Shown here piece by piece: positions 8,280-31,899 of a stretch of 36,504 bases of DNA (position 1 is the stretch's first letter; every line of letters begins with the position of its first letter). Below the pieces are notes generated by a model, which ran no database searches, was not told the origin of the DNA, and saw nothing but the letters and a program-made list of their open reading frames with translations. Source of the stretch: a virus; IMG/VR virus record IMGVR_UViG_3300017782_004791, positions 1 to 36,504 of that record; one strand, 5' to 3'. The position numbers were made by a program, and so were the translations under genes.

Positions 8280-8539
8280 TGGACGATGGAATGAGAGCGC
8301 TTCTTGGGAAGCGCAAGAACAGAACGCTGGCGATCATGCTCAGCGAGAAGGAAGAGATCGTTGACGAGTACCTCCCAGAGGAGGTGGCTCAGGAGCTTCG
8401 CAAGATGATCCTTGACTACGTGAACGACTTCCACGACTTCTGCGTGGATCTGGTCGATTCAGCCGAGTCAGGCATGATCTTCAACAAGCTTGCTCTTGAG
8501 AAGCTCGACACGATTGCGAGGGCGTTGGAGGACGGCTGA
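8279..8539 (+). CDS. Small hypothetical tail/neck protein
   Basis: This 86-residue acidic helical protein begins MDDGMRALLGKRKNR and contains VDEYLPEEVAQELRKMILDYVNDFHDFC. The start overlaps the previous stop by one base (TAATG) and its own stop overlaps the next start (TGATG), so it is translationally coupled on both sides. I recognise the general pattern from small proteins in the same region of actinophage genomes but know no function for it. The coupling suggests it is needed at levels matched to its two neighbours. Confidence 0.65.
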   Translation: MDDGMRALLGKRKNRTLAIMLSEKEEIVDEYLPEEVAQELRKMILDYVNDFHDFCVDLVDSAESGMIFNKLALEKLDTIARALEDG

Positions 8540-9741: not shown

Positions 9742-9751
9742 CGTTAAAACA

Positions 9752-9838
9752 CCTTTTGGCGGTGCCGATAGTAGATACATAGCCTTGAGCGGCTATGCCA
9801 TCCTCTATTAAAGTATGCGCCCTCTCAGCGCCAAAAGG
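9752..9838 (+). promoter_or_regulatory. Inverted repeat covering the major tail protein ribosome binding site
   Basis: CCTTTTGGCG (9752-9761) and CGCCAAAAGG (9829-9838) are perfect complements. The right arm includes part of the AAAAGGAG ribosome binding site of the gene at 9847. Between them a second hairpin, CATAGCC-TTGAGC-GGCTATG (9778-9797), has a perfect 7-bp stem. The layout suggests a multi-stem leader RNA that could hide the ribosome binding site. TTGAGC (9785) and TAAAGT (9809), 18 bp apart, are a weak candidate promoter within it. Confidence 0.6.
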
Positions 9839-9846
9839 AGTCAAAC

Positions 9847-15200: not shown

Positions 15201-17910
15201 AGACTTCGTTGACGCTCTTGACGACCTTGCGGGCACCGACGCCGGTGACCTCGACGAGGCCTTCGCACGCTCTAACCTTGACGAGCTTGCCGAGAGCAGC
15301 GACACCCCTGAGGCCATTGCCAACATTCTTCAGCGAGTCCTTGATGGAGAGCTTGATGCTGGTTTGGCCCTCCAGACCATTGACGCCCTCAATGATGTAA
15401 TCCAGCCTGTCTTGAGAAACCGTCGAGAGACAGAGGACAACGCTCTGGCTGGCTTGATTGCCAACCTTTCAAACCTGCCCGAGTTCGATACCGAAGATCA
15501 GATCAATGAGGCGATTGCTGCCGCTGCTGATGCTGGTTCTCAAACACCTGCTCTTGATGTCTTCATTGAGGCTGGTCTTGCAACGTCTGAGCAGCAGGCC
15601 GATATCGTCAACTCTGCTGTAGCGAGCTTCGAGTTTATTCGTGAACAGTACGAAGCTGGCCTGATTGGACAGTCTGAGTTCAACGCTCTTGCAGCCGAAG
15701 AGATCGCCGCCATTGACCGAATCCTCACCTCTCAGATTGCTAGCGGCAACGCTGGCGATGCTGCGGTTGAGAACGCCAACAACCTTGCTGAGCTACGTGA
15801 CGCTCTTGAGGAGGACGTGGTAGAGCGAGCAGACGACATCATCGCTGCTGCTGAGATCATCGGCGATCCGCTGTCGACTCGTGAACAGGCCGACCTGCTG
15901 ATTGCAACAGCGAACGACCTAACGGTCCGTCGTTCTCCAGAACAGATCGATGACATCGCAAACCGCCTGATCGCAGCAGAACAGGAGATTGCCCTTGAGG
16001 CGATTGGCCGTGCCGAGAGCGTTGAGGCTGCTCAGGCAATCATCGATGCATTCGGCCTAACCGACGCCGCTTCTGAAGCAGTCACCCGAGCACAGCTTCT
16101 TGCCAACTCGGACGTGTCGGCAGCAGTCACTCAGACCGCTGCCCAGAGCGGCCAGGACTTCGACGCTCTTATTGACAGCATTGTGACTGACATTGAGGGA
16201 GGAACTGCTGTCCTTGTGGCCATCCGCCGTAACTTGATCGATGCCGTCAGCCCGGAAAGCGGGTTCGGTGGCCTTGGTGCTCCGGGCGTTTCCGATTCGG
16301 GAGCAATCGCTGAAATTGACAGTCTCGTCAACAACATCGATCTTGGTGGTCTGTTCACTGGCGGTGACGTTGGCCTGGCTGGCGCTGTCGGTGCCCTTCA
16401 GGAAGTAGAAGATCGCATCGGAGAGAACATCACCGATGCGGTTGCCGACTACAGCGACGTGGCTGCCCTGCTGCGTGCCACAGGTCAGGAGGGTAGCGCT
16501 CTAGCTGCCGAGGTTCGAGGCATTGCCGCCGAACTAAACTCTCCAGACGTGGTGTCTGGTTCAAGCGATGCGATCCAGCTTGCGATCTCTCTCACTGAAG
16601 CGATCCAGGCCTCGACTGATTTGTCGGCTGAGCAGTTGGAGATCTTCAACGCAGCGATCCTCGGCCTAACCGAGACTGCGGGCCTATCTGCTGAGCAGTT
16701 CGCTCAGGCCAACGTGTTGTTCCAGCTTCTCTCTCAGAGCAGCAACTCGTTCAACCAGTTCATCGCCCTGTATCTACAGGCCGGGTCTGCAACATTCAAC
16801 GGTCTGCTTCAGCAGGTATCGGTCTTGATCGCTCAGGGCGTCAATGCCAATGAGGCGCTACGTCAGGTTTCTCAGTCTTCAGCGGCGGCTCTACGTAGCC
16901 GTATCGCCTTCCTGCGCCGGATCTTCGCTATCGAAGGCGACCCAGCGATCCTTGAGCAGATCAATGAGCTTGAAAGTGCTCTCGGCGGCCTGGACGACAT
17001 CTTCGCAAATGCGGGTAGCGCTCCATCTGTCAGCATTCCGAGAATCTCTGTTCCATCAGTCAGCAGCGGTGGAGGAGGATCGTCCAGTGACGACGCTGAA
17101 CGTGCAGCACGTGAACTCCGTGAAGCGCAGGAGGCGTTGCGTCGTGCCCAGATCGGTGATGACCCTGTTGCTCAGGCCTCGCTTGACCAGCAGCTTGCCA
17201 ACGAGGAAGTTGCTCGTGCCCAGACCGAGGCAGAACGTATCCGTGGTCTGATCTCTCAGATCGAGGCCCGCCGTGCCTACTGGACCGCAATCAACGATGT
17301 GATCCAGGCTCAGAACGAGCTTGCGATTACCATCGCTGAATCGAGTGGCGATTTCGCTAGAGCTTTGGAACTCTCTGTTGAGGGTGCTCAGGCTCAGCTT
17401 GACTTCCTGCGTAGCCAGGGTGCCGGTGCGGCTGAAATCAACCGTGCCCAGGCTGCCTTGATCAACGCACAGCAGGAGCAGGAGCGAGGGTTGATCCAGC
17501 TTCAGCTAGACGAGCTTGGCTTCCTGTTCAACATCGGTGACCTGTCGACGCAGGCCTACATTACGGCGCTTCAGGGAATCCTGGATCAGCTTGACCCAGT
17601 TGCGGACGTGGACCTGTGGCGTCAGATCTCGTTGCAGATCAAGAACCTGCGTGACTCGTCTAACGAGTTGCAGTTCAACCTGCCTGATAGCTTCGATCTA
17701 CCTACGCTGTTTGAGGTTCGTCGTTTGAACCAGGAAGGACTGGAATCAACTCAGTCGCTCCAGTTGGGCCAGTCGACCGTGGACAACCGACAGTACGAAA
17801 TCGTTTTGAATGTCCAAACTGGCTTGGACTGGGATGAGGCACGAGACGTGCTGGCTGATGCGCTCGGTGCGGATCAGTCGGTGTTCTCGCTTGGACCCAA
17901 GCGCTATTAG
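12268..17910 (+). CDS. Tape measure protein
   Basis: At 1880 residues this is the longest gene, directly after the chaperone frames, and it is assigned as the tape measure protein that sets tail length and is ejected at infection. It is Ala/Gln/Glu-rich with long predicted helices: an N-terminal coiled-coil region (residues about 130-300), hydrophobic stretches at about 313-351, 689-731 and 821-838 that could span a membrane, a helical middle, and a C-terminal coiled coil after a Gly/Ser linker (about residue 1605). With about 1.5 Angstrom per residue, the family rule of thumb, a tail near 280 nm is expected. I see no lysozyme or peptidase motif. GAGGGTAGAG precedes the ATG. Confidence 0.9.
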   Translation: MSDTTLIRVGLDASAVNQALIGIGNTSTSVFARLQAIASQPINIPANIAITGENRLNDIIRQVDAISDRAITGSGRVSNSFRRDVRESINNEFDRLIGPGGVRSQVRGRNAQGTATVALTRDAATQAILPLRQAVLQQVDALIGAREAGEAAYRQGLKDERQIQQQLIAADNDTLTRKASEANEARSISRAKSSIEGRLAVAREAEIQLSRESLAVIDTINNLNRAQVVNENAQVQQGRTEVSIQRRIQSAKNTLAQLLDPQVQAETAKVAAARRSLRAQEREAREQERRAAILATGSRVERLAEGGGIGGGFFRPIAAAGGAGSFFGGGIASTLRFALPSAALFGAFRGITEIVREAEELEQIFVRLEAQFNALGARGLFGGSNPVEQAQLATEALGDFREELLSISRDTGVANDQTSQLGAQFVGLFSSIGDGGGTQEFAETATRIAAEFAVITGLDPKTIFDDLVGGVRSFGDTGAEVLTLIDGLTDSIINVSDATGVAAGEITDFVGRIGPAAAQAGLTLEEITAIGSAALQGSGVGGAALAEQFGRILTGLQGELGNELSRLALQFEDTFRNIDLGDETVADLFNVDTVAAGEVDRVLFGLINGFDELSEAQQRQIVASIGSRREGATLAAVLQNASTVNTALAAATDISVDRSERFEDIVARLTGQLARLRSEFTQLGLNLFNAGLADILSSFITLLGGVVDVVSFAADVFITFGDILNGAFGDGASTAVLQLGLLLGAVNLFARTDTALVAGVRLLDAFAGISTAARSAAASTTLAARSFVAAGTAASRAAIAAQGAQGAFAGVAAGARTLTAAIGPLNLAIGAALLLWNNFSRGQAQAQEQMEATRERQALLLDVVIDSESPYAIASSAAANYADQLSNVAAAANEASGAVLDFSLAAGINAAIAGLDNSADVQSVLTQALGGGDLQSVADGLLADFGDDLQGVRDTLKRFDDVSTRQILGREIGDGLLGDFVDALDDLAGTDAGDLDEAFARSNLDELAESSDTPEAIANILQRVLDGELDAGLALQTIDALNDVIQPVLRNRRETEDNALAGLIANLSNLPEFDTEDQINEAIAAAADAGSQTPALDVFIEAGLATSEQQADIVNSAVASFEFIREQYEAGLIGQSEFNALAAEEIAAIDRILTSQIASGNAGDAAVENANNLAELRDALEEDVVERADDIIAAAEIIGDPLSTREQADLLIATANDLTVRRSPEQIDDIANRLIAAEQEIALEAIGRAESVEAAQAIIDAFGLTDAASEAVTRAQLLANSDVSAAVTQTAAQSGQDFDALIDSIVTDIEGGTAVLVAIRRNLIDAVSPESGFGGLGAPGVSDSGAIAEIDSLVNNIDLGGLFTGGDVGLAGAVGALQEVEDRIGENITDAVADYSDVAALLRATGQEGSALAAEVRGIAAELNSPDVVSGSSDAIQLAISLTEAIQASTDLSAEQLEIFNAAILGLTETAGLSAEQFAQANVLFQLLSQSSNSFNQFIALYLQAGSATFNGLLQQVSVLIAQGVNANEALRQVSQSSAAALRSRIAFLRRIFAIEGDPAILEQINELESALGGLDDIFANAGSAPSVSIPRISVPSVSSGGGGSSSDDAERAARELREAQEALRRAQIGDDPVAQASLDQQLANEEVARAQTEAERIRGLISQIEARRAYWTAINDVIQAQNELAITIAESSGDFARALELSVEGAQAQLDFLRSQGAGAAEINRAQAALINAQQEQERGLIQLQLDELGFLFNIGDLSTQAYITALQGILDQLDPVADVDLWRQISLQIKNLRDSSNELQFNLPDSFDLPTLFEVRRLNQEGLESTQSLQLGQSTVDNRQYEIVLNVQTGLDWDEARDVLADALGADQSVFSLGPKRY

Positions 17911-17942: not shown

Positions 17943-18314
17943 ATGGCTAGATGGGCTTTTAGTGATGATGTGCTCACGGAGACTTACAGCTTCGACGTGA
18001 ACCCCAACCGGGGTGGCACACCATCTTTCGAGAAGAATTTGACGTATTCATCAACCCCAGCGGGTTCACCGATCGTCTTTGAGGGGCGTGATAAGCCCCG
18101 TACCTTTACGATCTCTGGAATTCTTCGTGAAGAAGCTCAACTAAATGCTCTTCAAAGTTGGTACGAGAAAGATTATCAGATCGAGATCACTGATGATCTT
18201 GGTCGTCAGTTTTGGGTCTTCATCACCGATCTTGAGTTCCAGCGTGCCCAGACTCGCCGTTGGCCGTTCAGGCATACCTTTACCATGAACTACATCGAGG
18301 TCGATTGGCAGTGA
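17943..18314 (+). CDS. Distal tail (Dit)-like protein
   Basis: This 123-residue protein sits right after the tape measure gene, the standard Dit slot, and is assigned as the hub ring at the tail tip. It begins ARWAFSDDVLTETYSF, has a central RTFTISGILREEAQLNAL stretch, then ITDDLGRQFWVFITDL and a closing FRHTFTMNYIEV strand, a beta-sandwich pattern. It is short for Dit, matching only its N-terminal belt-forming domain. The same domain recurs as the C-terminus of the proteins at 25338 and 31018, aligned from WxF to the closing YT/Y strand. TAAGGAAC precedes ATG 17943. The Dit role is inferred; the repetition is seen directly. Confidence 0.65.
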   Translation: MARWAFSDDVLTETYSFDVNPNRGGTPSFEKNLTYSSTPAGSPIVFEGRDKPRTFTISGILREEAQLNALQSWYEKDYQIEITDDLGRQFWVFITDLEFQRAQTRRWPFRHTFTMNYIEVDWQ

Positions 18315-21256
18315 GAGAGCTACCTACCATCCGTCAAATCCTTCAGCAGAGTGATAACAAGTACGTCGGCGTCAATAAGCCCCATGGTCGTGTGACAGTT
18401 GAGCCTGCTTGGCAGTTGAACACAACCGGTCAGGTCTATGGCAACCTCGATGGCGGTCCGTATCGCTACTGGGCGTATGGAGACCAGTCTCAGGTCGAGC
18501 TAGAGGTCCCTAATATTGATTCGATCAGCATTAACCGCTCTCTGGATCAGGAGGCGGCTACTTGCACGATCATCATGTCGAATCAGGTGCATGACGACAA
18601 CGATGAGACGCCTTCTACTCTTGATTTCGGTAATCCTGGCTACTACGGCTTCGGCTATGGCGATGCTCCTGACTCGTTGCATCTGTGGGCACACCAGGAG
18701 AACTCTTGGAATAACGTCCTTGTCCCGAACGCTCTCATTCGCACCTATCAGGGCTATGGAGGCTACACGGTTGACGGCAATGGTCAGCTTCAACAGGACT
18801 CGATTTCGACTGCTGTGGCTTCTGGGAACCTTACCATAACTGGTGTATGGCTGATTGATACAGTTCAACTTGGAACCAATGGTAAGATCCAACTTCAATG
18901 CCGAGACATGGCAAAGCTGCTGATCGAACAGTTGATTTACCCGCCCCTCGTGCCAGATCGTTTCTATCCGCCGAAGTGGTGCCGCTATGTCTATGAGAGC
19001 GTTCCGGCTAACCCATTGAATGAAGGTGTCACTGAAGATGAGCCGCTCGTTCTTGGCCCTGCTTCACTTCAGTACGAAGATAGTTCTGTCGCTCGTTGGC
19101 TAGGCGCAAGCTCTGATCTCGGCAGTCAGGCGAAGAACGCTTTCTCGATCAACGAGACCGAAGTATCTATTGGTCACGGCTGGCGTTACTGGGAGTATGA
19201 CTATGCCAAGGACTGGTGGCAGGCGACCTGCAACACCGAGATCAACGAGATCTATATCAACCTTGCTGGTACACCTCATGGCGGTGGCTACTTCGTCTAC
19301 ATCTCCGTAATGGAGGACGGGGTATGGCAGGGCGTTTCAACAATCCCTTACAGCGGTGATGACCCTGGAAGCAATATTCAGATCTACCATCCCGATAAGC
19401 CCTCGCTGAATACCGGAATCAATTTCGTGACGGCGACAGGCATTGAACCGACTCCGAACGTAAACGAAGACCTGAAGGACGGCACGTGGGTGAAACTACC
19501 TCGTGTCTACGATGCCGAGCGGATTCGAATCACGGTGGAGTCTACCTGGGATTCTCCTTGGGGTCCGAACACCTATCGTTCAGCGGTCGGGGCTATCCGT
19601 GCTCGTCTCGCGAACATCGACGTGAATACAGAGACTCCGACTGTTGCCACTGAGTTTGAAACGATCCAGCGCGATGGCAACATCACTGACTGGCTTGACC
19701 CAGTGAAGGAGCTACTGCTGTGGGGCGGGTTCCTGCTCTACAACGGCGAAGAGCCTTCGGGCGAGCAGGGCGTCTACGGCATCTTAGAGACCTCGGGCAC
19801 ATGGCCAGTTGAGTGCCTTAACGAGAACCTATTCGACAAGAAGTCGATTATGGACTCTTTGATCTCTATCAAAGAGGTTTTGGGTTACCTATTCTTCATC
19901 GATGAAGAGGGCGCTGTCCATTTTCACTCACCGAACTGGTGGTCTTCGGGCAACACTAATCAGAACGGCATTCGGGTTAACTACGTTCACGACATCGCAG
20001 ACGATAACACGATGACGGACTACACGGCGAACTACACGGATGCGAACACTCGCTCTGAGATCGTCATCGATTCATCTCTAGTGGACGACGAAGCTGGCGA
20101 GACTCAGCACGTTTCTTTTGACCCTCGTGCTGTTCAAGCTCCAGACTCGCCAGATCTTCTACGTGGCATGGTTAAGCCTGCTGTCTGGACCAACGAGGTG
20201 TGGACTAACGAGGATGAGCAGCGCCTCATGGCTGCTCTTATTGGCTTGCATAGCATGTTCAATTCCCGTCAGGGCAGCGTGACGATCGTCGCCAATCCTG
20301 AGATTCAGATTAACGATCAGGTTCGCATCACTGAGCGTGTGACTTCCGAATCCTGGGTTCACTACGTCCGTTCTATCCAGTCGGATATGAACCTGGAGAC
20401 CGGTGAGTACACGATGACTGTCGGCACGAACTGGTTGGGCGAGTCGGAGAATTGGGCGTTTGATCGCAATACTCTTCTTGCATTCTACAACCGTCAGAGT
20501 CAGCCACGTCAGACTGGTTATGACAATGGCTACGAGGCTTGGCGTGCATTCCAGGAGGGCCGCTCTCAGGATCTTCGCATCCCAACTGTGGTTACTGAGC
20601 CTTCGGTGACACACGGCGAAGGAGGCACTTGGAACGTCGGCGTTGTGGTTGGTAGCGACCCTGGCACTGGTGTTTCGGCTGCCGAGATCGCAGACACTGA
20701 TGTTTTGGCGTTCATGGATCAGGCGACTCAATACTCGCTGACCTCGGTTAACTATATCTTCTCAACTCCAACTGTCCCAACGGGGTACGACGTTCTGGTT
20801 GTCACATCTGAGGCGAACAACTCGGACATCAACTCGTGGGGTTCGTTCGCTTTGATCAGCACCCCGGTCATCCATGCTCGTCCAGCGAACTGGGACAACA
20901 ACGAGATCTCTGGCGTTGGTGCAAGCTCTGCGAACTCGTCAACGATCGATGCCCAGATCAACGGAGCGTTCCAGATCACTGGCGCTCCGGGCACCGTCCC
21001 ATTCGGTGACGGAGGCACGGTTACTACTTCGGCTGTGGCCAGCGGAAACCTGCCAACTGGCACGATCTCTGTTGGTGAGTCTGGCGGCGGCGACATCGTG
21101 ATTGGTGCCATTCCTGCTGGTGAAACCTACGACGATTCGAACGACTCAACGGTGCGCCACGTCATTTGGGGTTCCGATGTTGCCGATGTTGATCTATACG
21201 ACAGCGTTGCCTGGGAGGCAATGGGTGATGCAATCCTATGGACTAAGGGAGTCTAA
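18311..21256 (+). CDS. Tail hub / Tal-like minor tail protein with C-terminal alpha/beta domain
   Basis: This 981-residue protein is taken to start at GTG 18311, overlapping the previous stop (GTGA) and preceded by GAGG 10 nt away; a longer frame to 18260 would overlap the Dit-like gene. The N-terminal half resembles gp27-type hub proteins, with IDSISINRSLDQEAATCTI (about residues 69-87) and a later VRITERV / YVRSIQSDMNLETGEYTMT region (about 665-705). Between these an inserted beta-rich Trp/Tyr-rich region (about 260-450) looks like a carbohydrate-binding module. Residues about 795-981 form an alpha/beta domain shared with the start of the protein at 25338. The hub anchors the tail tip and fibres. 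Confidence 0.7.
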   Translation: MRELPTIRQILQQSDNKYVGVNKPHGRVTVEPAWQLNTTGQVYGNLDGGPYRYWAYGDQSQVELEVPNIDSISINRSLDQEAATCTIIMSNQVHDDNDETPSTLDFGNPGYYGFGYGDAPDSLHLWAHQENSWNNVLVPNALIRTYQGYGGYTVDGNGQLQQDSISTAVASGNLTITGVWLIDTVQLGTNGKIQLQCRDMAKLLIEQLIYPPLVPDRFYPPKWCRYVYESVPANPLNEGVTEDEPLVLGPASLQYEDSSVARWLGASSDLGSQAKNAFSINETEVSIGHGWRYWEYDYAKDWWQATCNTEINEIYINLAGTPHGGGYFVYISVMEDGVWQGVSTIPYSGDDPGSNIQIYHPDKPSLNTGINFVTATGIEPTPNVNEDLKDGTWVKLPRVYDAERIRITVESTWDSPWGPNTYRSAVGAIRARLANIDVNTETPTVATEFETIQRDGNITDWLDPVKELLLWGGFLLYNGEEPSGEQGVYGILETSGTWPVECLNENLFDKKSIMDSLISIKEVLGYLFFIDEEGAVHFHSPNWWSSGNTNQNGIRVNYVHDIADDNTMTDYTANYTDANTRSEIVIDSSLVDDEAGETQHVSFDPRAVQAPDSPDLLRGMVKPAVWTNEVWTNEDEQRLMAALIGLHSMFNSRQGSVTIVANPEIQINDQVRITERVTSESWVHYVRSIQSDMNLETGEYTMTVGTNWLGESENWAFDRNTLLAFYNRQSQPRQTGYDNGYEAWRAFQEGRSQDLRIPTVVTEPSVTHGEGGTWNVGVVVGSDPGTGVSAAEIADTDVLAFMDQATQYSLTSVNYIFSTPTVPTGYDVLVVTSEANNSDINSWGSFALISTPVIHARPANWDNNEISGVGASSANSSTIDAQINGAFQITGAPGTVPFGDGGTVTTSAVASGNLPTGTISVGESGGGDIVIGAIPAGETYDDSNDSTVRHVIWGSDVADVDLYDSVAWEAMGDAILWTKGV

Positions 21257-21774
21257 TGGTTTCAAGGGATAATTTGTTCGTAAGACAGCCAGGGGCTAGC
21301 CAGCGGCACCGTCGATCTAGCTTCTCTGGCCTGAATGCAGCAAGTGAGCGCCGCCGTGGCGACCTCATTCGTTCTGCTAACACCGAAGGCACTGTTCACG
21401 TGATTCCTGGCTTCAGGGAGCTTCTGGGGGCAGGTGAGAACCTCGTGGATGTTGTATTCCCTGTGGCTTTCATTCAGCCGCCAGTGTTCTTGTATGGCTC
21501 TGCCCTAGCCCCTGGTAGCGAGCTAGTTGATGGCGAGTACCCGGTAGTTTCGGCTGTGGTCGCCTACTGGGATGTCACAGAGCCTGACGTGGATGTGTTC
21601 GGCGCTCCGCTTCGCCAATACTACAGTGGTGCCCAAATTGCGGTTACTACTATTGGCCCTGAGTATCAGCGTATAATCATGAGTTGGCAGTTCTCGGGTA
21701 TGGCTTTGACAAACCCGAGAGGTAGTCAGCGGACATTGCCGACTGAGAATGAGATCGGAAGGACAATCGGATGA
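21256..21774 (+). CDS. Minor tail protein (hypothetical)
   Basis: This 172-residue protein starts at ATG 21256, one base into the previous stop (TAATG), and ends overlapping the next start (ATGA). It has a basic N-terminus (RQPGASQRHRRSS) followed by a beta-rich body with VIPGFRELLGAGENLVDVVFP and a mid-protein AVVAYWDVTE. I do not recognise a family. Tight coupling on both sides, between the hub and the S74 fibre, makes a minor tail or fibre-attachment role the best guess. No Cys and no membrane segment are seen. Confidence 0.6.
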   Translation: MVSRDNLFVRQPGASQRHRRSSFSGLNAASERRRGDLIRSANTEGTVHVIPGFRELLGAGENLVDVVFPVAFIQPPVFLYGSALAPGSELVDGEYPVVSAVVAYWDVTEPDVDVFGAPLRQYYSGAQIAVTTIGPEYQRIIMSWQFSGMALTNPRGSQRTLPTENEIGRTIG

Positions 21775-23765
21775 GTAGAGATGTTGTCTACATTCGCGGC
21801 AATGGTCGCAGCTCTCGAATTAGCCGAACCGACTCGACCTACACCGGCTATGCCACTGAGACTGGCCCTGTCGTTGATCGCCTCAACAACGAGGTGCTAA
21901 CAAATACACCGTCCCCAGGGAACCTGTCGCTATCCTCAGGGACTTTGTTCAACAACGTCTATATTGCCGCTACATGGGACCCGGCAGGAGACTCGAACGT
22001 CGTCGGCTATGAGGTTGTATTCCGTCGTGATGACACGGTTTCTCCTGCTGTTGTTCAGCGTGTCGAGACGACTTCGGCATGGTTTGAGCCTGCTCTTGGC
22101 GGCGCTGACTATACTGTCATCGTTTCGAATGTCTATGTGAATGGCGTGCTAGGTCAGAACACTACGACCGACACGATTACTGCCGCTACTGACTCGACCA
22201 TCCCAGACATTCCGACTGGCCTCTCAATTGGCACAGGCATTCGCTCCATCACTGTCTCTTGGAATGAGAACACCGAAGATGACATGCAGTTTGGCCTGGG
22301 GCAGTACCGCCTTCAGATTTCGGACGATTCCGGGTTCTCGAACATCATTCAGGATAAGAAAGTTGGCGCTCTCGTTACAACGTTCTCTGACCTAGAAACG
22401 AATGTTCAATATTATGTCCGCATCGCTTCGGTTGACACATCGGGTAATGAGTCGGCCTTCTCTGGTTTTGTGACTGCCACAACCGGTGAGGTGCAGGGCA
22501 CGGATATCGCAAACCTTGCGATTACAAATGCCAAGATCGCCAACTCCACGATTGGCTTCGCTAAAATCATCGAGCTTCAGGCCAACCAGTTGATTGCCGG
22601 ATCAGGCTTCATCAATGCATTGACGGTGGCCTCTGGCGGTTCTATTTCTTCGGCTAATTACAACGCTGGCACTGCTGGTTGGAGGATCACGAACAACAAT
22701 GCCGAATTCAATAACGTAACTATCCGGGGAACTCTTGATGGTGCTACTGGTTCGTTTTCTGGTTCTTTGAGTGCTGCTACGGGTTCATTCTTGGGGAGTA
22801 TCACGGGTGCGAGTGGAAACTTTTCGGGCAGCATTACGGGCGCGACCGGCGACTTCGATGGAACTGTAGATGCCAATAACATCAACGCCGGAACAATTGA
22901 AGGCTCAACCATTAAGACTGGCGCCACCGGCTCTAATCGCATTGAGATGACTACGGGTAACACTCTTACTTGGTATAACTCGTCTAACAACATCCTTTGT
23001 CAGTTTGGCGATAACGGAACATACTTCGAGATGGACGGCACGGTTGGTCTTGCTCGTCCTCTCTGGATTCACGGAGACTTCCTGCTTATTGAAGCTGACT
23101 TTGGCAACATCACAATGAACGCAGGTGCGGCTATCGCCATCACATCTGGCAATGGTTCAAATGAAGATATCGTTTTGAATGTCCCTGGGACAAACACTAG
23201 CACTGGCGTTGACTTGAGGAAGAATAACACCGTGTGTGTCCGTGCTATCCAATCCGGTGCCTACGGTCAGCCTGTCTCTGTTCTTCGCCGTATGGGCAAC
23301 ACTTCATCTACAGGCATGGCTGACCTTGGATTCGGCATTGTGGGAACTTATTCGTCACGTGCTGAACTTAAAGAGTGGACCCGAACAGTTGAGCATGAAG
23401 CGGCCCGAGACCGGATCATGGCTTACCGTCCCGTTGACTGGGCATACAAGCCGGATCTTTATCCAGACAACCCTTTTCATGGCTTGGCGACACAGCGTGG
23501 TTTCGTGGTTGAAGAGGTCGCTGCTGTAGACTCCAATTCTGTCGATTACAATTGGATCGACAAAGATGATCGCTCTCAGTTGGCAGCAATGCCAAACCCG
23601 GAAGATCTAAGAGAGGGCCAGACAATGGAAGAGTGGTTCGATGAGAACTACCCAATTGAGTCTGCTGAGCCATCAATGTGGAACCATTTTGCTATACTGG
23701 CAGATGTGGTTGCTCACAATCAGTTTTTGGAAAAGCGGGTTGAGGAACTAGAATCTAGGAACTAA
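21771..23765 (+). CDS. Tail fibre: two FN3 domains and C-terminal S74-type chaperone
   Basis: The 664 residues divide into a short N-terminus, two fibronectin type III-like domains (about 45-140 and 143-240; second ends YYVRIASVDTSGNES), a lambda J-like segment (LAITNAKIANSTIG), a Gly-Ala-Thr/Ser repeat region (GATGSFSG, AATGSFLG, GASGNFSG, GATGDFDG; about 325-365), a beta-rich body, and a C-terminal domain from about 529. That domain opens SRAELK, matching the S-x4-K pattern of S74 intramolecular chaperones, which trimerise the fibre then cut themselves off at the Ser; Ser529 and Lys534 are both present. It ends in a coiled coil (FLEKRVEELESRN). The ATG overlaps the previous stop (ATGA). It probably binds the host surface. 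Confidence 0.75.
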   Translation: MSRDVVYIRGNGRSSRISRTDSTYTGYATETGPVVDRLNNEVLTNTPSPGNLSLSSGTLFNNVYIAATWDPAGDSNVVGYEVVFRRDDTVSPAVVQRVETTSAWFEPALGGADYTVIVSNVYVNGVLGQNTTTDTITAATDSTIPDIPTGLSIGTGIRSITVSWNENTEDDMQFGLGQYRLQISDDSGFSNIIQDKKVGALVTTFSDLETNVQYYVRIASVDTSGNESAFSGFVTATTGEVQGTDIANLAITNAKIANSTIGFAKIIELQANQLIAGSGFINALTVASGGSISSANYNAGTAGWRITNNNAEFNNVTIRGTLDGATGSFSGSLSAATGSFLGSITGASGNFSGSITGATGDFDGTVDANNINAGTIEGSTIKTGATGSNRIEMTTGNTLTWYNSSNNILCQFGDNGTYFEMDGTVGLARPLWIHGDFLLIEADFGNITMNAGAAIAITSGNGSNEDIVLNVPGTNTSTGVDLRKNNTVCVRAIQSGAYGQPVSVLRRMGNTSSTGMADLGFGIVGTYSSRAELKEWTRTVEHEAARDRIMAYRPVDWAYKPDLYPDNPFHGLATQRGFVVEEVAAVDSNSVDYNWIDKDDRSQLAAMPNPEDLREGQTMEEWFDENYPIESAEPSMWNHFAILADVVAHNQFLEKRVEELESRN

Positions 23766-23781
23766 GTAGAAAGAAAGAGAA

Positions 23782-24033
23782 ATGGAAAATCAGGAAACAA
23801 TCAAAGCCCCAGATATTGTAGATCAGGCAATCAGCATTGTCCGAAGTGGTGCTCGACTCACTGACATTGCGGTGGTCGAGGTCTCTGATGGAGAAGTGGT
23901 GAAGTATCTGACGGCTCTCGCCCCGGACATTGTTGACCAGGCCCGTAAGGACATCACTATTGCGAAGCAGGCTGGCGTGATCCATAACCTGTCGGCCCCT
24001 GCCGATACAGAAAGTGAGGACGCTGAGGAGTAG
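23782..24033 (+). CDS. Small hypothetical protein between fibre genes
   Basis: This 83-residue acidic protein starts at ATG 23782 after a purine-rich AAAGAAAGAGAA leader. The sequence has two similar stretches, APDIVDQAISIVR and APDIVDQARKDIT, separated by about 38 residues, hinting at an internal duplication of a short helix. It ends in an acidic tail. No family is recognised. It sits between two adsorption genes and may be a fibre chaperone or minor tail component, but nothing in the sequence shows this. Confidence 0.65.
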   Translation: MENQETIKAPDIVDQAISIVRSGARLTDIAVVEVSDGEVVKYLTALAPDIVDQARKDITIAKQAGVIHNLSAPADTESEDAEE

Positions 24034-24038
24034 GCGCA

Positions 24039-25334
24039 ATGGTAGCTAGAACGAACAATTTTGGACTTGTGGCTCTACAGCCGGGGGATAGTCTCTCTGC
24101 TGGCGGGTATGGATTCATCAACGATAACATCTTCAAGATTGATCGGCTTCTGGCCGCTGCTACTTCTCACGACCATACAGACTCGGGTTCGGGTCTGGCT
24201 GATCCAGTCGGTGCCCCGGTTCTCACATTGAGTACCAGCTCAGGCAACCTGCCTGCCGGTACTACGATCCGTTACCGTTATAGTTATGTGGATCAGTACG
24301 GATCTGAAACTGCTGCCTCACCAGAGGCCATGGTCTCGACTGCTGCTGTTGTTCAGAAGCCGGGTTCGCCCAACATCACTTCGGTGTCGACGGGTGGGTC
24401 TCTTTTGGGCGGCAACTACAACTACGCCGTCTCGGCTTATGTGACCTCCAACACGAACGAAACCGACCTGGGTGGTCGCCAGAGTGCAAGCGTGGCTTTC
24501 GCTACTGCTACGAATGTCAACACCGTGACGCTGCCCGCTTTGCCTGCTGGCGCTACGGGTTTCAATATCTACCGTCGTGCGCCTGGGGAGGCATTCTTCT
24601 CGTACTTGGCTTCCACCACTGGAGCCACCTACAGCGACGATGGGGGCACGACCCCAAACTACAGTCGTCAGCCTCAGATTGTCAATTTGACAAATAGCAC
24701 CAACAATGTGCTGGTTGCGCTTCCTGGCCCTGTCCCTGCGAATGCTACCTGGAAGATCTATCGCACGTTCGTTTCTGGCAACTGGGAGACTTCAAATCTG
24801 AAGCAGATTACCCAAGAGACATTTGTTGGCTCTGGGATCATTGTTGATGAGTACACAGACCTTGGTCTAGGCACCGGTCTTGAATCGGCTCCTGAGGTCA
24901 CTGAGATCGCTCAGGTTCCGTCGAAGATCTCGAACAACGAGGTCGACTTCGCCTACGTCTCATACTCGCCTACTATCACTGGCTGGGCTGAGGGTGACGG
25001 TACGCTCACTGCTTCCTACGCTGAGCTAGGCAAGCTAGTCTTCGTCAAGTTCAACTTTGTCTACGGCGGCACTTCTACTTCAGCTTCGCCGCTCTCTATC
25101 CCGCTGCCGGTGAACGCTGCGACTACGGGCTTTGTGGGTATGAACGGCATGTTGACTGACAGCAACACCGGCAATATCGCTCCTGCTGCTGTGGAGATCA
25201 CCGGCGCTGGAACATTCACGCTTCGCCCTATGTCGAGCGTGACCCAGCTAGATGGCGCTGTCGAGAACGGAACTCCTTGGACTTGGGCTACCTCTGATGT
25301 GGTGAGCGCATCCTTCGTGTATGAGGCGGCGTAA
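24039..25334 (+). CDS. Minor tail / fibre protein with Ig-like domains
   Basis: This 431-residue protein begins TNNFGLVALQPGDSLSAGGYGFINDN followed by a His-containing segment (TSHDHTDSGSG), a pattern I know from actinophage minor tail proteins. It continues with two Ig/FN3-like domains (about 56-107 and 112-215, with RYRYSYVDQYGSETAAS and GFNIYRRAPGE) and a C-terminal beta domain (about 300-431). GGAG in the end of the previous gene lies before ATG 24039. The N-terminus is probably the attachment part and the C-terminus the exposed one. Receptor binding is inferred from the neighbourhood. Confidence 0.65.
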   Translation: MVARTNNFGLVALQPGDSLSAGGYGFINDNIFKIDRLLAAATSHDHTDSGSGLADPVGAPVLTLSTSSGNLPAGTTIRYRYSYVDQYGSETAASPEAMVSTAAVVQKPGSPNITSVSTGGSLLGGNYNYAVSAYVTSNTNETDLGGRQSASVAFATATNVNTVTLPALPAGATGFNIYRRAPGEAFFSYLASTTGATYSDDGGTTPNYSRQPQIVNLTNSTNNVLVALPGPVPANATWKIYRTFVSGNWETSNLKQITQETFVGSGIIVDEYTDLGLGTGLESAPEVTEIAQVPSKISNNEVDFAYVSYSPTITGWAEGDGTLTASYAELGKLVFVKFNFVYGGTSTSASPLSIPLPVNAATTGFVGMNGMLTDSNTGNIAPAAVEITGAGTFTLRPMSSVTQLDGAVENGTPWTWATSDVVSASFVYEAA

Positions 25335-25337
25335 ACC

Positions 25338-28300
25338 ATGACCCTCGCAACCGGTTCATGGGAACCGATGGAGGTTCTGTTCGTCGTATCCAGCAGCGGC
25401 AGCCCGGTCGCCGCCGATCAGGCGATCGTGGGTTTGCTGGAGGACTCGGCGCACGTCGTCACGCTGCTCGGCCATACTAATTCGGCACCGGCCGGATACG
25501 AGACAGATTACGATCTGGTCCTGATCTCGGAGTCTTGTACGTCGAGCAGTATCGACACGGCGTTCCTGTCGGCATCGATCCCCGTGATTTGCATGGAAGG
25601 GTTCTATGCGGACGCAGGCGGAACGGCTGCGTGGATCAGCGCCAACCCCTCCAACCTGACGGCCCAGACATCGGTGTACTACGAGGACGACACCGAATTG
25701 CACTGGGCTGGCGAGACGGTCGATAGTGCCGTGACGCTCGCGTCCACGTCGCTGATGCGGTTCAGCGGCACGACCGGCGCAGGGTTCGTCGAGGTGGTCA
25801 CGGACGGGAGCACGAGCGGCGGGGACCTGATCGTCGGCGTCTACCCGTCGGGTTCGACCGTTTACGGCGGCGACACTGCCAACGCCAACTACGTCTACTT
25901 GGGGTTGCATTCTGATGGCTACACCTCATGGAACACCGCCACCGAAGAACTGTTCTTCTCCTGCATTCAGTGGGCTACCGGCGTGCGCCAGGTTACCGTT
26001 GCTGCGACCGGAGCGAATTACACTGGCATCCAGGCAGCGCTAGATGCAGCCGAGTGTGAGAACGGCATCTGGCGAGTCATCATCAACGAGAGCGTCGAGT
26101 ACAACCCGTCCACCACGATCGACATCGACACCGCAAACGGCACACTCGACGCCACCCACTTCATTCACCTGTGCGTCCATCCGGACCATCGCCACTCGGG
26201 TATCGCCGGAACGGGGCACGCCCGAGTGCACATGCAGGCGAACGGCCACGCTTTCACGATTGACCGAGACTTCACCGTCATCTCGGACTTGGAAATCAAG
26301 CTAGAGAACACGCAGGCCTCGGCCGAGTGCGTTCGTGTCCTGGCTGATACCAACGATGTTCTGTTCTCACGGAACATCTTTTGGGCGGACGGAAACACGG
26401 ATGCCGCAGACCAAGACGGACTCTTTTGCTCAAGCTGGTCCGCCGACTTCTCGGTAGACAACTGTGTCTTTCACGGCTTTGATCGAGCCGGGATCGACAT
26501 GCAATGTATTGCTGGGAGCCACGTCCACACCCTGGCGGTGGATCACTGCTCCTTCCACGACAATGGCGACTCAAGCGGCGAGATAGACGGCGGTCACATC
26601 ACTTCGTGGAACGGCGGTTCGACGCTCACGATGGGCGCCTACAACTGCGCCTTCGGCGACGTTTACGCCGACGGCGGAACGGCTCGACCCATCAATATGT
26701 CGGCCTCGCAAACTTCTGGCACATCTACGGTCAACGGGTCGCACAATGCCTGGGACAGCAACACCAACCGGGTTTCTCCCGACTATGACAACGACAACAC
26801 CACGGACTGGATATACGCAGCTGGCGGAATCACCGAGGTCACGACCACAGCTAGCGCCATCATCTTCAGCGAGGAGACGGACAACTCCGCCTATAACCTG
26901 ACGCCTGCCGTACCCACTGGCGCTGGTTCTAACGCTTTGCTGGGCGCTGGCACGAACCGCATCGGCTCTGAGCCAGATTCTCGCCAGGACTTCAGTCTCG
27001 ACATCGCCCGCAACCCCCGATCAACTACCGGCATTGACGTTGGTGCGTTCCAAGTATCATCCGTCCCCGTCGAGGTTGAGGTTGTTGCTACCGCGATCCA
27101 GTCGACCAACAGTGGTCAAGCTAACCCGGAAGAGTTTGACTTTTCGCTCTCGTTGAGTGACCTGCAAGACGATGACCGCATCCTTGTCCTGCTGTCGCTC
27201 GACGATGACCCGGCAGAGTACACGACCGCTGCGCTCGACAACGGCGTCACTGCGTCGTCGGTCACGCAACGAGGAACGCCGGTCACGTTGTCAACCACCG
27301 GAGCGGCGACGTTCTCCAGCGAACCGACCGGAACGGTCGAAGGCGACCGATTGATTGCCTTGTTGCATCAGGACTTCGACGGCGAGGACACCCTGACCGC
27401 AGCGACCGGCTGGACCAAGATTGGTGGCGTCGACATCAACGATGGGTCGGACTATCCAGCTGTCGCTGCGTTCTACATCGACCGAGGAGCGTCAGCCCCA
27501 TCGCTAGCGTTCGGTTCTGATGGGTCATCTGGCGTGTCCGGGGTCCTGTATGCCGTCCACGGCCACGATGTCGCTGTCGCTCCGAAGTTCGCCACGTCGG
27601 TAGACACTGGCTCGCCAGCCACACACACCCCACCAACCGTGCATGTCGCTGCGGCAAACGCTGGTGGGTTCGTGCTTATCGCCAACTCGGACGGCAACGC
27701 TACGTGGACAACCCCAGCGGCAATGGTCGAAGACTACGAGGACTCCCCCGACTCGTTTTCGTCGGCCGTGTTCGCATCCGACACCGCTCTGAGCGCCGGA
27801 GACTGGTCTCCTGGAGCGTTCACCCCTTCGAGCACGAGCAGCCGCTGTTCGATGATCACTGTCGTTGTCGAGCCTGATACCGGGATGAACCAGATCACGA
27901 CCGGTGTCGACAACTCGGGCGGCACGAGCAACCGAGTGACGGCGTGGATCAGTGATCCGCTCAGCGGAACCATGCCTACGACGGTAACGTTGTCGGGCAC
28001 CGGTCTCGCCGAGCAGAACGTCATCATCGTCTACCAACTGCGTAACGTCTCGACCTCATCGATCCTGGGCGATGTCATCGAGAACATCCGCACCGTCTAC
28101 GACACAGGTGCGGGCAACGGCACCTCGGTGACGGTCGAGGGCAGTGACACCGTGACCGACAACGGTTCCGTCGTGGTCGCTTTCGTTGGCACGAACTCGG
28201 ATTCGGATGCGGTCGGAGCAACGCCGACCGGCTGGACCGCTGGCCCCGGCGACGACAACTCCAACATCTCGGGCTGGTCCTTCTACCGATCTGGAGACTC

Positions 28301-29312
28301 TGGCCTCGATCCCGACATCACCATGTCGTGGACTACGAGTCGTCAGTACGCCGCGTTCTCGTTCGTCATTCGGCCAACCGGCGATGGGGGGAGCGACGGC
28401 GATATTGCTGGCTCTACTGACACTGCGAGTGGTGCGACCGGCGAGCTTTCTATTGCTATCCCGCTTGAGGGTTCTGCCGGATCTGCCTCTGAAGCAACCG
28501 CCACAATTAGCAAGGCCGTACCTCTTTCTGGTAGCGCTGAGAGCGCCTCTGAGGCCACTGCGGACATGGCTAAGGTTGTGCCGCTGGCTGGCTCTGCGAA
28601 CGCAGCATCGGACGCTACAGGCTCTCTGAGCGGCGGCGGCGATCTTTCAGGTTCGGCAGCCACAGCTTCTGGTGCGACTGGCGAACTTAGCGCCACCCTG
28701 AACGTCGCTGGCTCTACTGGATCTACTTCTGGCGCTGAGGCGACTCCAAGCCTCACTGTTGAAATCTCTGGCTCTGCGGCCGCTGCTTCCGGTGCTCGTG
28801 GTTCTGTCAGCGATCTGTCAGTCTCGGGCCGTGCTGGTACAGCCTCGGAAGCTACGGCAACCTTGTCGATCACCATGTCGGTTTCTGGTTCGGCCGATAC
28901 AGCTTCTGGGGCAGAGGGTGATCTGTCGGGCGGTAGTGATCCGTCATTTGTGCAGTGGAGGTTCACTGATCCAGTAACCTCGGACACCTACTTCTTCGAG
29001 AGCAACCCGACATCTGGTGGCACTCCGGGCCGTTCGAAGAACCTCGTGTACCAGAACTCGGCAGCCAACAACAGGACTCTCGCATACAAGAGGGCAGAGG
29101 AAGCGAGGACGGTCCGTGTTCAGGGCACGCTGTATTCACAGGCTCAGTTGTACGCCCTGGCCGAATGGTCACAGAAGCGCTATCCGATCACCCTCCAGGA
29201 CGATCTTGAGCGTACGTTCACGATCTACATCGAAGGGCTGGATGTTCGCCGCAAGCGCACAGCCGATACCCCATATGCGCATGATTACACCTTGAGTTAC
29301 GTCGTCGTTTAG
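25338..29312 (+). CDS. Large adsorption protein: alpha/beta, beta-helix, repeat and Dit-like domains
   Basis: The 1324 residues are modular. Residues 11-215 form an alpha/beta ThuA/amidotransferase-like domain (VLFVVSSSGS, YDLVLISES, FSCIQWATGV). Residues 217-572 are a right-handed parallel beta-helix like pectate lyase folds, with many short turns (DNCVFHG, DHCSFHDNG, YNCAFG) and a closing IDVGAFQ. Residues about 575-1020 are two beta-rich concanavalin-like regions. Residues 1023-1203 are nine roughly 20-residue repeats, and 1204-1324 repeat the Dit-like protein at 17943. The role is probably host-surface polysaccharide binding or cleavage. Through about 28,400 the coding sequence is richer in GC and uses different codons from its neighbours. 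The ATG lies 4 nt after the previous stop. Confidence 0.7.
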   Translation: MTLATGSWEPMEVLFVVSSSGSPVAADQAIVGLLEDSAHVVTLLGHTNSAPAGYETDYDLVLISESCTSSSIDTAFLSASIPVICMEGFYADAGGTAAWISANPSNLTAQTSVYYEDDTELHWAGETVDSAVTLASTSLMRFSGTTGAGFVEVVTDGSTSGGDLIVGVYPSGSTVYGGDTANANYVYLGLHSDGYTSWNTATEELFFSCIQWATGVRQVTVAATGANYTGIQAALDAAECENGIWRVIINESVEYNPSTTIDIDTANGTLDATHFIHLCVHPDHRHSGIAGTGHARVHMQANGHAFTIDRDFTVISDLEIKLENTQASAECVRVLADTNDVLFSRNIFWADGNTDAADQDGLFCSSWSADFSVDNCVFHGFDRAGIDMQCIAGSHVHTLAVDHCSFHDNGDSSGEIDGGHITSWNGGSTLTMGAYNCAFGDVYADGGTARPINMSASQTSGTSTVNGSHNAWDSNTNRVSPDYDNDNTTDWIYAAGGITEVTTTASAIIFSEETDNSAYNLTPAVPTGAGSNALLGAGTNRIGSEPDSRQDFSLDIARNPRSTTGIDVGAFQVSSVPVEVEVVATAIQSTNSGQANPEEFDFSLSLSDLQDDDRILVLLSLDDDPAEYTTAALDNGVTASSVTQRGTPVTLSTTGAATFSSEPTGTVEGDRLIALLHQDFDGEDTLTAATGWTKIGGVDINDGSDYPAVAAFYIDRGASAPSLAFGSDGSSGVSGVLYAVHGHDVAVAPKFATSVDTGSPATHTPPTVHVAAANAGGFVLIANSDGNATWTTPAAMVEDYEDSPDSFSSAVFASDTALSAGDWSPGAFTPSSTSSRCSMITVVVEPDTGMNQITTGVDNSGGTSNRVTAWISDPLSGTMPTTVTLSGTGLAEQNVIIVYQLRNVSTSSILGDVIENIRTVYDTGAGNGTSVTVEGSDTVTDNGSVVVAFVGTNSDSDAVGATPTGWTAGPGDDNSNISGWSFYRSGDSGLDPDITMSWTTSRQYAAFSFVIRPTGDGGSDGDIAGSTDTASGATGELSIAIPLEGSAGSASEATATISKAVPLSGSAESASEATADMAKVVPLAGSANAASDATGSLSGGGDLSGSAATASGATGELSATLNVAGSTGSTSGAEATPSLTVEISGSAAAASGARGSVSDLSVSGRAGTASEATATLSITMSVSGSADTASGAEGDLSGGSDPSFVQWRFTDPVTSDTYFFESNPTSGGTPGRSKNLVYQNSAANNRTLAYKRAEEARTVRVQGTLYSQAQLYALAEWSQKRYPITLQDDLERTFTIYIEGLDVRRKRTADTPYAHDYTLSYVVV
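28404..28946 (+). repeat. Nine tandem ~20-residue Gly-Ser-Ala repeats
   Basis: The translated units follow the pattern (s/a)GSAxxASxATGxLSxxxxx, for example SGSAATASGATGELSATLNV and SGSADTASGAEGDLSGGSDP. They vary in sequence but hold a 19-21 residue period, suggesting repeated short strands or a fibrous stalk. The same pattern occurs in the gene at 31018. Confidence 0.75.
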
Positions 29313-29339
29313 GACGATAGGGATAGTAGGAGTTGAGGA

Positions 29340-30770
29340 ATGGCTGCACTAGTAGAAGACTTTAGATCAGGTACGTTGACCGGCGCTATTACGGATAGTG
29401 CTACGACGATCTTCTCGGCTGAATTTGCCGATATCCAGGCGATCTCTGCTGACACGATGTCGATCGTCTTGGACCCGCAGGGCGTAGACGGTGATCCCGA
29501 GATCGTAACCATCACGAACCACGGTGCGTCGGATACTGACGTGACCGTTACCCGTGGTGCAAACAACCGTGCCCATGCTGCTGATACACGTTGGGTCCAC
29601 GCCGTCACTGCGGCTGATCTTCAGCGTATGGGGTTCGAGGGAACTTACACTGGTGATGTGGTCGGCAACGTCACTGGTGACTTGACAGGCGACGTTACCG
29701 GCAATGCGGATACTGCGACTAACGCCTCTACCGCTACTGCCCTTCAGACTGCTCGCACGATCGGCGGCGTAAGCTTCGATGGTACGGCAAACATCAACCT
29801 ACCTGGTGTAAACACGGCGGGTAATCAGGACACGTCGGGCAATGCTGCTACGGCTACGTTGGCTGCTAACAGTAGTTTGCTTGGCGGTCTTGGCCTCAAA
29901 TCAAGCAGTGGCACTCCAAGCGGTAGCCAAGTAATTCGGTCCCACACTAATGGGTACACCTACTTGGGCTGGATCAACACACCTAGCGGCTCAACAACTT
30001 CAACTATCAACCGCATCTTTGCGTCAAACGATAACTTCGTTCGTTACATCACTCCAGCTACGTTCAGATCACAGATCATCAATGGTCAGAGCATTACGCC
30101 AACCAACGTCACTGGTGGCAGCGTCCACGAGTCCGACTACTTCGAGGCCGATGTCAATGGGACTCGATCTGCTCCTGCCTACCGCTGGGACTCGGACACG
30201 AACATCGGTCTCTACCGTTCTGGCACAGACGAAGTTGCGGTAGGCGTTGCTGGTGAGTGCGCCGCCATTTTCGTTGAATCTACGAACAACAATACAGGTT
30301 CGGCTGGAGATGGTTATGTGGCGTTCAACACATATATGGGTGGAACGACGGGCACTGCTGCTGTAATCTCCAGCACAACCGTTAGCGGTGAATCTGTCAA
30401 GCGCCTTCTGTTCAACTCCTCGACCGATGATTCCAAGGACACCCCTGTTCCTTGGGAGATGTCAGATGAGGCGTTCAAGAAGATTAAGACTAGCTCCTAT
30501 CACTACCACGATACTTACGTAGACGACTTTGGGACGCACCAATTCTGGGACAAGGCCCGTGCCCTCTCGGGAGACCAGATTGATGACCCGCCTGACACTT
30601 GGGTACCCTTGAAGCGTTTTGGCTTCATGTGGAGCCAGTTGATGGAACACGAGGAGCTTTGGCCTCTGGTCACCGATCTCGGAATCCACGAGCCAGCGAT
30701 GCTGGCCGCAATCACCTCTGTTGTTCAGAGGCTCATTGACCGAGTGGAAGTCTTGGAGGCAGCAGCATGA
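29340..30770 (+). CDS. Tail fibre with phage fibre repeat and S74-like C-terminus
   Basis: This 476-residue protein has an N-terminal adaptor domain (about 1-100, ending TRWVHAVTAADLQ, a pattern common to virion-attached N-termini), then a Thr/Asn/Gly-rich fibre repeat region (about 105-175) containing TARTIGGVSFDGTANINLPG and NTAGNQDTSGNAAT, typical of T4/lambda-side tail fibres. A beta-rich body follows, with RWDSDTNIGLYRSGTDE. The C-terminal 102 residues start SDEAFKKIK, which keeps the Ser and Lys spacing of S74 chaperones (Ser375, Lys380) but is otherwise divergent, and end in a short coiled coil. AGGAGTTGAGGA precedes ATG 29340. Likely a trimeric receptor-binding fibre. Confidence 0.7.
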   Translation: MAALVEDFRSGTLTGAITDSATTIFSAEFADIQAISADTMSIVLDPQGVDGDPEIVTITNHGASDTDVTVTRGANNRAHAADTRWVHAVTAADLQRMGFEGTYTGDVVGNVTGDLTGDVTGNADTATNASTATALQTARTIGGVSFDGTANINLPGVNTAGNQDTSGNAATATLAANSSLLGGLGLKSSSGTPSGSQVIRSHTNGYTYLGWINTPSGSTTSTINRIFASNDNFVRYITPATFRSQIINGQSITPTNVTGGSVHESDYFEADVNGTRSAPAYRWDSDTNIGLYRSGTDEVAVGVAGECAAIFVESTNNNTGSAGDGYVAFNTYMGGTTGTAAVISSTTVSGESVKRLLFNSSTDDSKDTPVPWEMSDEAFKKIKTSSYHYHDTYVDDFGTHQFWDKARALSGDQIDDPPDTWVPLKRFGFMWSQLMEHEELWPLVTDLGIHEPAMLAAITSVVQRLIDRVEVLEAAA

Positions 30771-31015
30771 ACCTTCTACAGATGACCCAAGAGGAACGCA
30801 CTTGGATTCTGGCTGAGCTAGAAGAACGCCATGGTCACGGACCACTAGAAGACCTTGGTATTGATGGGAAGGTCCGCTGCACAGTGTGTGACTTCTACTT
30901 GACCGAGAGTGACCTTATTCGCTGGGCTATGGGGCGTCCTGCCTACATGGAACAGCCCGAAGAGGTCCGTGAGGCTAAGCGCCAGGAGTGGTTGGCACTT
31001 AGAACCAAGGATTAG
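30767..31015 (+). CDS. Small hypothetical protein with CxxC motif
   Basis: This 82-residue protein overlaps the fibre stop by 4 bp (ATGA), so it is translationally coupled to it. It is highly charged, with a helical N-terminus (QEERTWILAELEERHGHG) and RCTVCDFYLTESDLIRWAMG in the middle. There is one CxxC only, so a full zinc site would need dimerisation or the nearby His residues. It could assist fibre folding, as small genes downstream of fibres often do, but this is a guess from position. No family is recognised. Confidence 0.65.
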   Translation: MNLLQMTQEERTWILAELEERHGHGPLEDLGIDGKVRCTVCDFYLTESDLIRWAMGRPAYMEQPEEVREAKRQEWLALRTKD

Positions 31016-31017
31016 CA

Positions 31018-31899
31018 ATGGCCTTTATCCCCGCAGTCGGTACAGTACCGGTTGGTGAGGAGGCAGTACCGTCTACGCAGACGATCACGGTCTCCTTTTC
31101 CGGTTCAGCCGCCAACGCTTCCGGGGCCAATGGCCTAGAGTTCTCGACCGACAAGCTCTTTGACGGCAAGCTCGGCAATGCCTCCGACCTGTCGGGTAAC
31201 ATCAGTATTGTTGGCCCAATCTCGGGTTCCGCCAATATCGCTGAGGCTGTATCAGCAGACCTTCTCGAAGGAATCCTGGTCGATGGTCTCTCTGCGAACG
31301 CAACAAGTGCAACGGCCACGCTATCTCAGACAGTCGCATTCTCTGGTTCGTCACCTGCCTCGGCAGCAGCGCTAGCGTCCAATCTAGAGATCCAGATGGG
31401 CGTTTTTGGCGCGTCCGAGAACGCCTGTGACCTCTTCGGCGCTGCTGGCGTGCCTGTGCCCGTGTCTGGTTCAAGCGGTATCTCATCGGGTACCAGAGGC
31501 GGCGTTACCGACCTGCTGTTCAGTCAGTGGCGATTCATCGATCCGCAGACCAGCGAGGTCTACCGCTTCCTTCGCAACCCAAGCACCGCACCAACGACCG
31601 CAGGCTCGACACGTCGTCAGAAGTCGATCGTCTTCGATCAGCGACGTGCAGACGGCAAGACTGTGATGTTCAAGAAGAACGGCGAGGCGATCCAGGTCCG
31701 CATCACAGGCGTCCTCGACACACAGGAGCAGCTAGAGGCCTTGGAGACGTGGACCCGCAAGCGTTACGCCGTGACCCTGCGTGACGACCTTCAGCGCCGT
31801 TACGAGGTGTATCCGCAGTCCTTCGAGCCTCGTCGTGAGCACAAGGCAGACGCCCCGTACTACCACACCTACACGCTGACTTACACTTTGGTGGAGTAA
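31018..31899 (+). CDS. Repeat-containing tail protein with C-terminal Dit-like domain
   Basis: This 293-residue protein mirrors the end of the protein at 25338: a stretch of about seven degenerate 20-residue Gly/Ser/Ala repeats (about residues 27-167, for example FSGSAANASGANG and PISGSANIAEAVSADLL), then a C-terminal domain (168-293) beginning FSQWRFIDPQTSEVYRF and closing YYHTYTLTYTLVE. The latter matches both the gene at 17943 and the end of 25338. The two proteins are thus paralogues through their C-terminal halves; this one lacks any receptor-binding head. It may be a stalk or docking subunit at the tail tip. AAGGA precedes ATG 31018. It is the last gene before the early promoter. Confidence 0.7.
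   Translation: MAFIPAVGTVPVGEEAVPSTQTITVSFSGSAANASGANGLEFSTDKLFDGKLGNASDLSGNISIVGPISGSANIAEAVSADLLEGILVDGLSANATSATATLSQTVAFSGSSPASAAALASNLEIQMGVFGASENACDLFGAAGVPVPVSGSSGISSGTRGGVTDLLFSQWRFIDPQTSEVYRFLRNPSTAPTTAGSTRRQKSIVFDQRRADGKTVMFKKNGEAIQVRITGVLDTQEQLEALETWTRKRYAVTLRDDLQRRYEVYPQSFEPRREHKADAPYYHTYTLTYTLVE
31096..31518 (+). repeat. Degenerate ~20-residue Gly-Ser-Ala repeat array
   Basis: About seven units of 19-22 residues, each starting near a G(S/L/K) turn with hydrophobic ends (SGSAANASGANG, DGKLGNASDLSGN, SGSANIAEAVSAD, SGSSGISSGTRGG). The period and composition match the array at 28404 but sequence conservation is weaker. Confidence 0.6.

Follow-up and report, generated by a model that had tools for sequence, protein, structure and literature searches.

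Why should a single phage encode a tail-tip ring domain three times, once as a protein of its own and twice at the ends of much longer polypeptides? Distal tail proteins (Dits) have a ring domain with the tail-tube/Hcp-like fold, and the "evolved" Dits bear carbohydrate-binding modules in a peripheral domain (PMC7291167). The question is raised by a stretch of 36,504 bases that makes up the entire IMG/VR virus record IMGVR_UViG_3300017782_004791 (hereafter the window), in which a sequence-only reading had recognized one Dit-like domain in three places. We examine whether the three copies are homologous, what the lone copy is, and whether the other two could plausibly attach adsorption proteins to the virion. 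The features on which the argument depends are as follows.

12268–17910, + strand: tape measure protein, 1880 residues, directly 5' of the Dit gene (Pfam PhageMin_Tail, E 6e-10; PHROG tape measure, E 6e-6; aligns with a GX15bay 'minor tail protein')
17943–18314, + strand: minimal Dit, a lone ring domain of 123 residues (gene order; AF2 model; fold matches; orthologues in GX15bay and IMG/VR contigs)
18260–21256 (ORF coordinates), + strand: Tal-like tail hub protein, 978 residues when translated from 18320 (31–47% identity to the same-position proteins of relatives)
25338–29312, + strand: large adhesin-like protein of 1324 residues with a Dit-like domain at its end (single uninterrupted frame; Dit profile iE 3e-48)
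25350–25985, + strand: N-terminal module of the 25338 protein, residues 5–216, a relative of the Tal-like C-terminus (end-to-end alignment; BLASTP)
28395–28937, + strand: about nine 20-residue Gly/Ser/Ala-rich repeats, xGSAxxASxATGxLxxxxxV, residues 1020–1200 of the 25338 protein (self-match 0.41 at lag 20)
28953–29309, + strand: Dit-like domain at the extreme C-terminus of the 25338 protein, residues 1206–1324 (BLASTP; alignment; Dit profile; shuffles)
31018–31899, + strand: 293-residue protein with degenerate repeats (approximately residues 26–168) followed by a Dit-like domain
31525–31896, + strand: Dit-like domain of the 31018 protein, residues 170–293 (BLASTP; AF2 model; fold matches)

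Three copies of one domain

The sequence-only reading had aligned the protein at 17943 along its length with the C-termini of those at 25338 and 31018, and its domain boundaries proved correct to within 1–2 residues. In BLASTP comparisons, the 17943 protein matches the end of the 25338 protein with 38% identity over 119 residues (E 1e-26) and that of the 31018 protein with 29% identity over 125 residues (E 2e-11); the two longer proteins match each other at E 6e-34, a value to which their repeats contribute. The Smith–Waterman scores of the pairs 17943/25338, 17943/31018 and 25338/31018 lie 44, 26 and 45 standard deviations above those of 1000 shuffles, and the homology of the three segments is thereby established. 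The two fused copies are the nearest to each other (45% identical). In a three-row alignment, 29 columns are invariant, among them W4, F6, D8, Y15, N20, P21, G59, W73, D84-D85-L86, R88, R101, P108 and H111, and the anchors originally picked out by eye agree with them. These comparisons confirm, at the level of sequence, that one Dit ring domain is present in this uncultivated tailed phage as three diverged paralogues, one of them alone and two at the C-termini of longer adhesin-like proteins. A scan of the entire 36.5-kb contig revealed no fourth copy. An assembly artefact in the form of a duplicated contig is unlikely, since identity among the copies is only 30–45% and a related contig, L009, has the flanking genes in collinear order.

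The expectation that the copies would also share a fold was borne out for two of them. The AF2 model of the 17943 protein (pLDDT 72.8, with residues 24–49 of low confidence) matches tube initiators, tail tubes and Dits in Foldseek and VIA-align searches. That of the 31018 protein is confident only in the last seventy residues, which comprise the last strands and the helix (pLDDT ~90); its repeats are mostly below 50 and its N-terminal part is of low confidence. Both models have the tail-tube/Dit ring fold, with the same order of secondary structure (strand-helix-strand-strand-strand), and for both the best solved match is the phiCD508 baseplate chain 9g8s_S (Z 11.9 for 17943 and 12.2 for 31018). 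The Dit of phage p2 (2wzp_P) is matched with Z 9.5 and 9.4, respectively, by two models that are not fully independent, because both input alignments held all three window copies. The C-terminal domain of the 25338 protein presumably has the same ring fold, since it is 38–45% identical to the two folded copies. The low-confidence stretch that corresponds to a putative Dit belt appears to be kept in the fused copies.

The lone copy and its relatives

One phage in GenBank, GX15bay, an uncultivated member of the Caudovirales from mangrove soil, encodes a protein 35% identical to that at 17943, and it is collinear with the window in its head and tail modules. Scans of IMG/VR added twelve contigs (L009–L015, L024, L028, L029, L032 and L048), making thirteen related records in all; L013 and L014 encode an identical Dit sequence and hence are not independent. 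In every one of the thirteen, as in the window, a gene for the domain is situated between those for the tape measure and the Tal-like protein. The 17943 protein itself has no match in Pfam, PHROGs or PDB sequences, and the matches to Dit profiles come from two of its relatives (L028, PHROG Dit, 4.4e-4; L024, Pfam Dit_like, 0.0027, below the family cut-off). Members of the Tal-like family weakly match the PHROG 'tail protein' (5.7e-5) and 'baseplate hub' (0.0065) families.

The identification of the 17943 protein as a minimal Dit is thus well supported by a gene order that is constant in the related records, and the ring fold and the weak profile matches of the relatives point the same way. Siphophage Dits such as SPP1 gp19.1, those of p2 and T5 (pb9) and the minimal Dit of lambda have the same tape measure-Dit-Tal order and a tail-tube-like ring fold, and the minimal form consists of the ring domain only. 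A peripheral C-terminal galectin or OB domain is found in most Dits of known structure, whereas the 17943 protein is devoid of one and ends with the ring domain, as minimal Dits do; we have not taken this as disqualifying. Its sequence is, however, too distant from these Dits for a direct match in Pfam or PHROGs. In the virion, the protein would join the tail tube to the Tal-like hub.

Several GX15bay genes, annotated as PhoH, epimerase, glycoside hydrolase family 25 and chitinase (L007 2353–5175; L005 5313–6530, 14383–18297 and 18290–18718), are collinear homologues of the window structural-region genes at 1104, 9847, 18260 (Tal-like) and 21256; these annotations may be wrong or describe added domains only. 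Elsewhere in GX15bay (L005 2866–4031), the window gene 7758–8279, a single gene, is matched by two neighbouring ones, which implies a tandem duplication or a loss in one lineage.

The sequence-only reading had proposed a search of related phages for the same arrangement, and here the outcome was divided: the domain is present in all thirteen records, but none of them has a fused copy anywhere other than between the tape measure and Tal-like genes. A profile search of the whole records, which may be fragments, found one copy in each, except for two in L015 and L032, and none beyond that interval; among the records compared, only the window has the domain as the C-terminus of proteins encoded away from the Dit position. 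In L032 (9570–10402), copies a and b stand in tandem between the tape measure and Tal-like genes, and in L015 (within 6983–9931) the order is tape measure, copy a, a 688-residue gene, copy b and Tal-like. The a copies of these two records pair together in the tree, as do the b copies; in L015, the product of the Dit gene proper has a short extension at its N-terminus. In L048 (65–1192 of a 136-kb contig), the sole copy is the C-terminus of a 375-residue protein encoded between tape-measure-like and Tal-like genes, immediately upstream of the latter. Its extension of 249 residues contains glycine-rich repeats and a stretch that is Ig-like by eye; in the frame that it shares with the domain, its GC3 is 0.90, against 0.94 for the domain, as coding DNA would show. 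A ring protein in the Dit position can therefore carry an N-terminal extension. Both genome-contig scans yielded no bacterial relative, and none was found among plasmids. A match in L004 covers 24 residues inside a polymerase sliding clamp-like protein and is due to chance, as are probably the Campylobacter phage matches (E 0.02–0.5 over ~54 residues).

The fused proteins and their possible role

The genes of the two fused proteins lie 7–13 kb from the Dit gene. Both proteins have the Gly/Ser/Ala-rich repeats, in degenerate form in that of 31018, and no gene at the loci of the relatives has more than one GSAxxA(S/T) match. Searches for other proteins with the 25338 body or a domain of the fused type found none, nor did a search for other repeat-bearing proteins, the result of which is limited by low-complexity filtering. 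In Pfam, the fused proteins have no match to a carbohydrate-binding family. Also in the window is a fibre-type protein (21771–23765) with fibronectin type III domains, which near its C-terminus matches the endosialidase chaperone (Peptidase_S74) below threshold (E 0.0028).

At its other end, the 25338 protein resembles the Tal-like protein. The end-to-end score of residues 5–216 with the Tal-like C-terminus is 112, compared with 45 ± 8 for shuffles (largest 98; z 8), and BLASTP gives 25% identity over 166 residues (E 5e-5; window 20585–21253 against 25350–25985). The two ends are thus probably the same module. If the Dit domain is the anchor of the 25338 protein, this module would be distal in both proteins.

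The reading that we favor, with somewhat better than even confidence, is that the Dit domains of the two longer paralogues anchor them on the virion via a tail-tip ring. In both proteins, the ring domain would be the virion-anchoring end, packing into a tail-tip ring, either mixed with the Dit in one ring or as an additional Dit-like ring; the 20-residue repeats would serve as a tether, while the 25338 protein would extend its N-terminal part toward the host. The L048 protein, in which a domain in the canonical position carries an N-terminal extension, makes it plausible that proteins ending in a ring domain are held on the virion by it. Docking of the adsorption proteins through membership in the Dit ring or imitation of it, as originally suggested, is thus plausible and offers the best reading, one in which we infer virion incorporation, ring membership, stoichiometry and the tether and adhesion roles alike. 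A more specific form of it, a tail-tip ring built of three different Dit-type subunits, of which the adhesins would be integral members attached C-terminally via the repeat tether instead of fibres bound N-terminally outside the Dit ring, is possible but rather doubtful.

The fused copies have, nonetheless, changed in ways that could indicate another use of the fold. They keep 21/33 and 22/33 of the sites conserved in canonical copies, including the W, DDL, NP, R and PxH motifs, and conservation is much the same in the a-type paralogues of L015 and L032 (20/33 and 21/33). The canonical FEGRDxP (positions 46–52) has become YKRAEEA and FKKNGEA, TDDLGR (around 83–88) has become QDDLER and RDDLQR, and neither copy has the C-terminal DW; simple substitution into the Dit ring is therefore not assured. 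In the tree, they form a clade on a long branch (support 100/99) apart from the window's own Dit, and most inner branches are without resolution. The joint departures and the separate clade are what one might expect had the fused domains ceased to form rings at the tail tip, the fold being kept for another end as an adhesin cap, an oligomerization module or a surface-binding domain. We judge this unlikely, because the core residues and the putative belt stretch, of low confidence in the models, are retained, and this same fold builds hexameric rings in Dits, tail tubes and Hcp (PMC7291167). The opposite net charges of the Dit and the fused copies were dropped as a sign of a mixed ring, since canonical copies span -10 to +2.

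The placement of the fused copies in the tree, away from the window's own Dit, would also suit an origin of the entire block 25338–31899 as a mosaic cassette from another phage, with its own ring domain and no functional tie to this phage's Dit. The closest collinear relative, L009, has just one 133-residue gene between its 24039-like and 31947-like genes, as such an acquisition would lead one to expect. The tree is, however, poorly resolved outside a few branches, and the N-terminus of the 25338 protein resembles the C-terminus of this phage's own Tal-like protein, a part that the shorter Tal-like protein of L009 lacks; a functionally unconnected cassette seems to us quite improbable. As for the 31018 protein, it has the repeats and the Dit-like domain, Pfam and PHROG searches recognize no other module in it, and a ring domain on a repeat tail could conceivably be an assembly or competition factor and not an adhesin. 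An unseen small domain could nevertheless lie in the N-terminal part, where the model is of low confidence, and we give such a role very little credence.

Relation to known tail-tip rings

Extra, probably host-binding, domains on a ring protein are also a property of the evolved Dits. Theirs, however, are insertions within the Dit's own peripheral C-terminal domain, and the window's Dit has no binding module so placed; here the additions are N-terminal to the ring domain, on separate paralogues, and a bare Dit is kept. In the lactococcal ceduoviruses c2 and bIL67, two Hcp-like paralogues are predicted to alternate in a hetero-hexameric, Dit-like ring whose periphery bears carbohydrate-binding or hydrolase-like domains (PMC12474359). 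Their ring subunits are thus likewise decorated paralogues, but they number two, have N-terminal ring domains and are accompanied by no separate bare Dit, whereas the window has three, and the ring domains of the fused ones are C-terminal. In contractile phages, the tube initiators build rings with this fold and bear further domains (PMC11915804). Those of phiCD508, Mu (gp43) and R2 pyocin are the best structural matches, and in the pyocin chain 6u5b_g it is likewise a C-terminal domain (residues 144–286) that is matched. They belong to contractile baseplates, whereas no wedge or sheath protein was recognized among the window genes scanned, and we have for this reason assumed the phage to be a siphovirus. 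The present case resembles these decorated or mixed rings in its working principle and differs from them in domain order, in the retained bare Dit and in gene position. Our literature search, from which subscription papers were mostly missing, turned up no adhesin described as having a Dit domain at its C-terminus.

To our knowledge, the attachment of siphophage adhesins has been described for few phages, and mostly involves N-terminal fibre domains bound to the Dit or the tube. An order with the binding part first and the anchor last would reverse that of such fibres. If the C-terminal ring domains are indeed anchors, they would provide a sequence marker for virion-bound adhesins and would show how duplication of a ring gene can supply an adhesin with its base.
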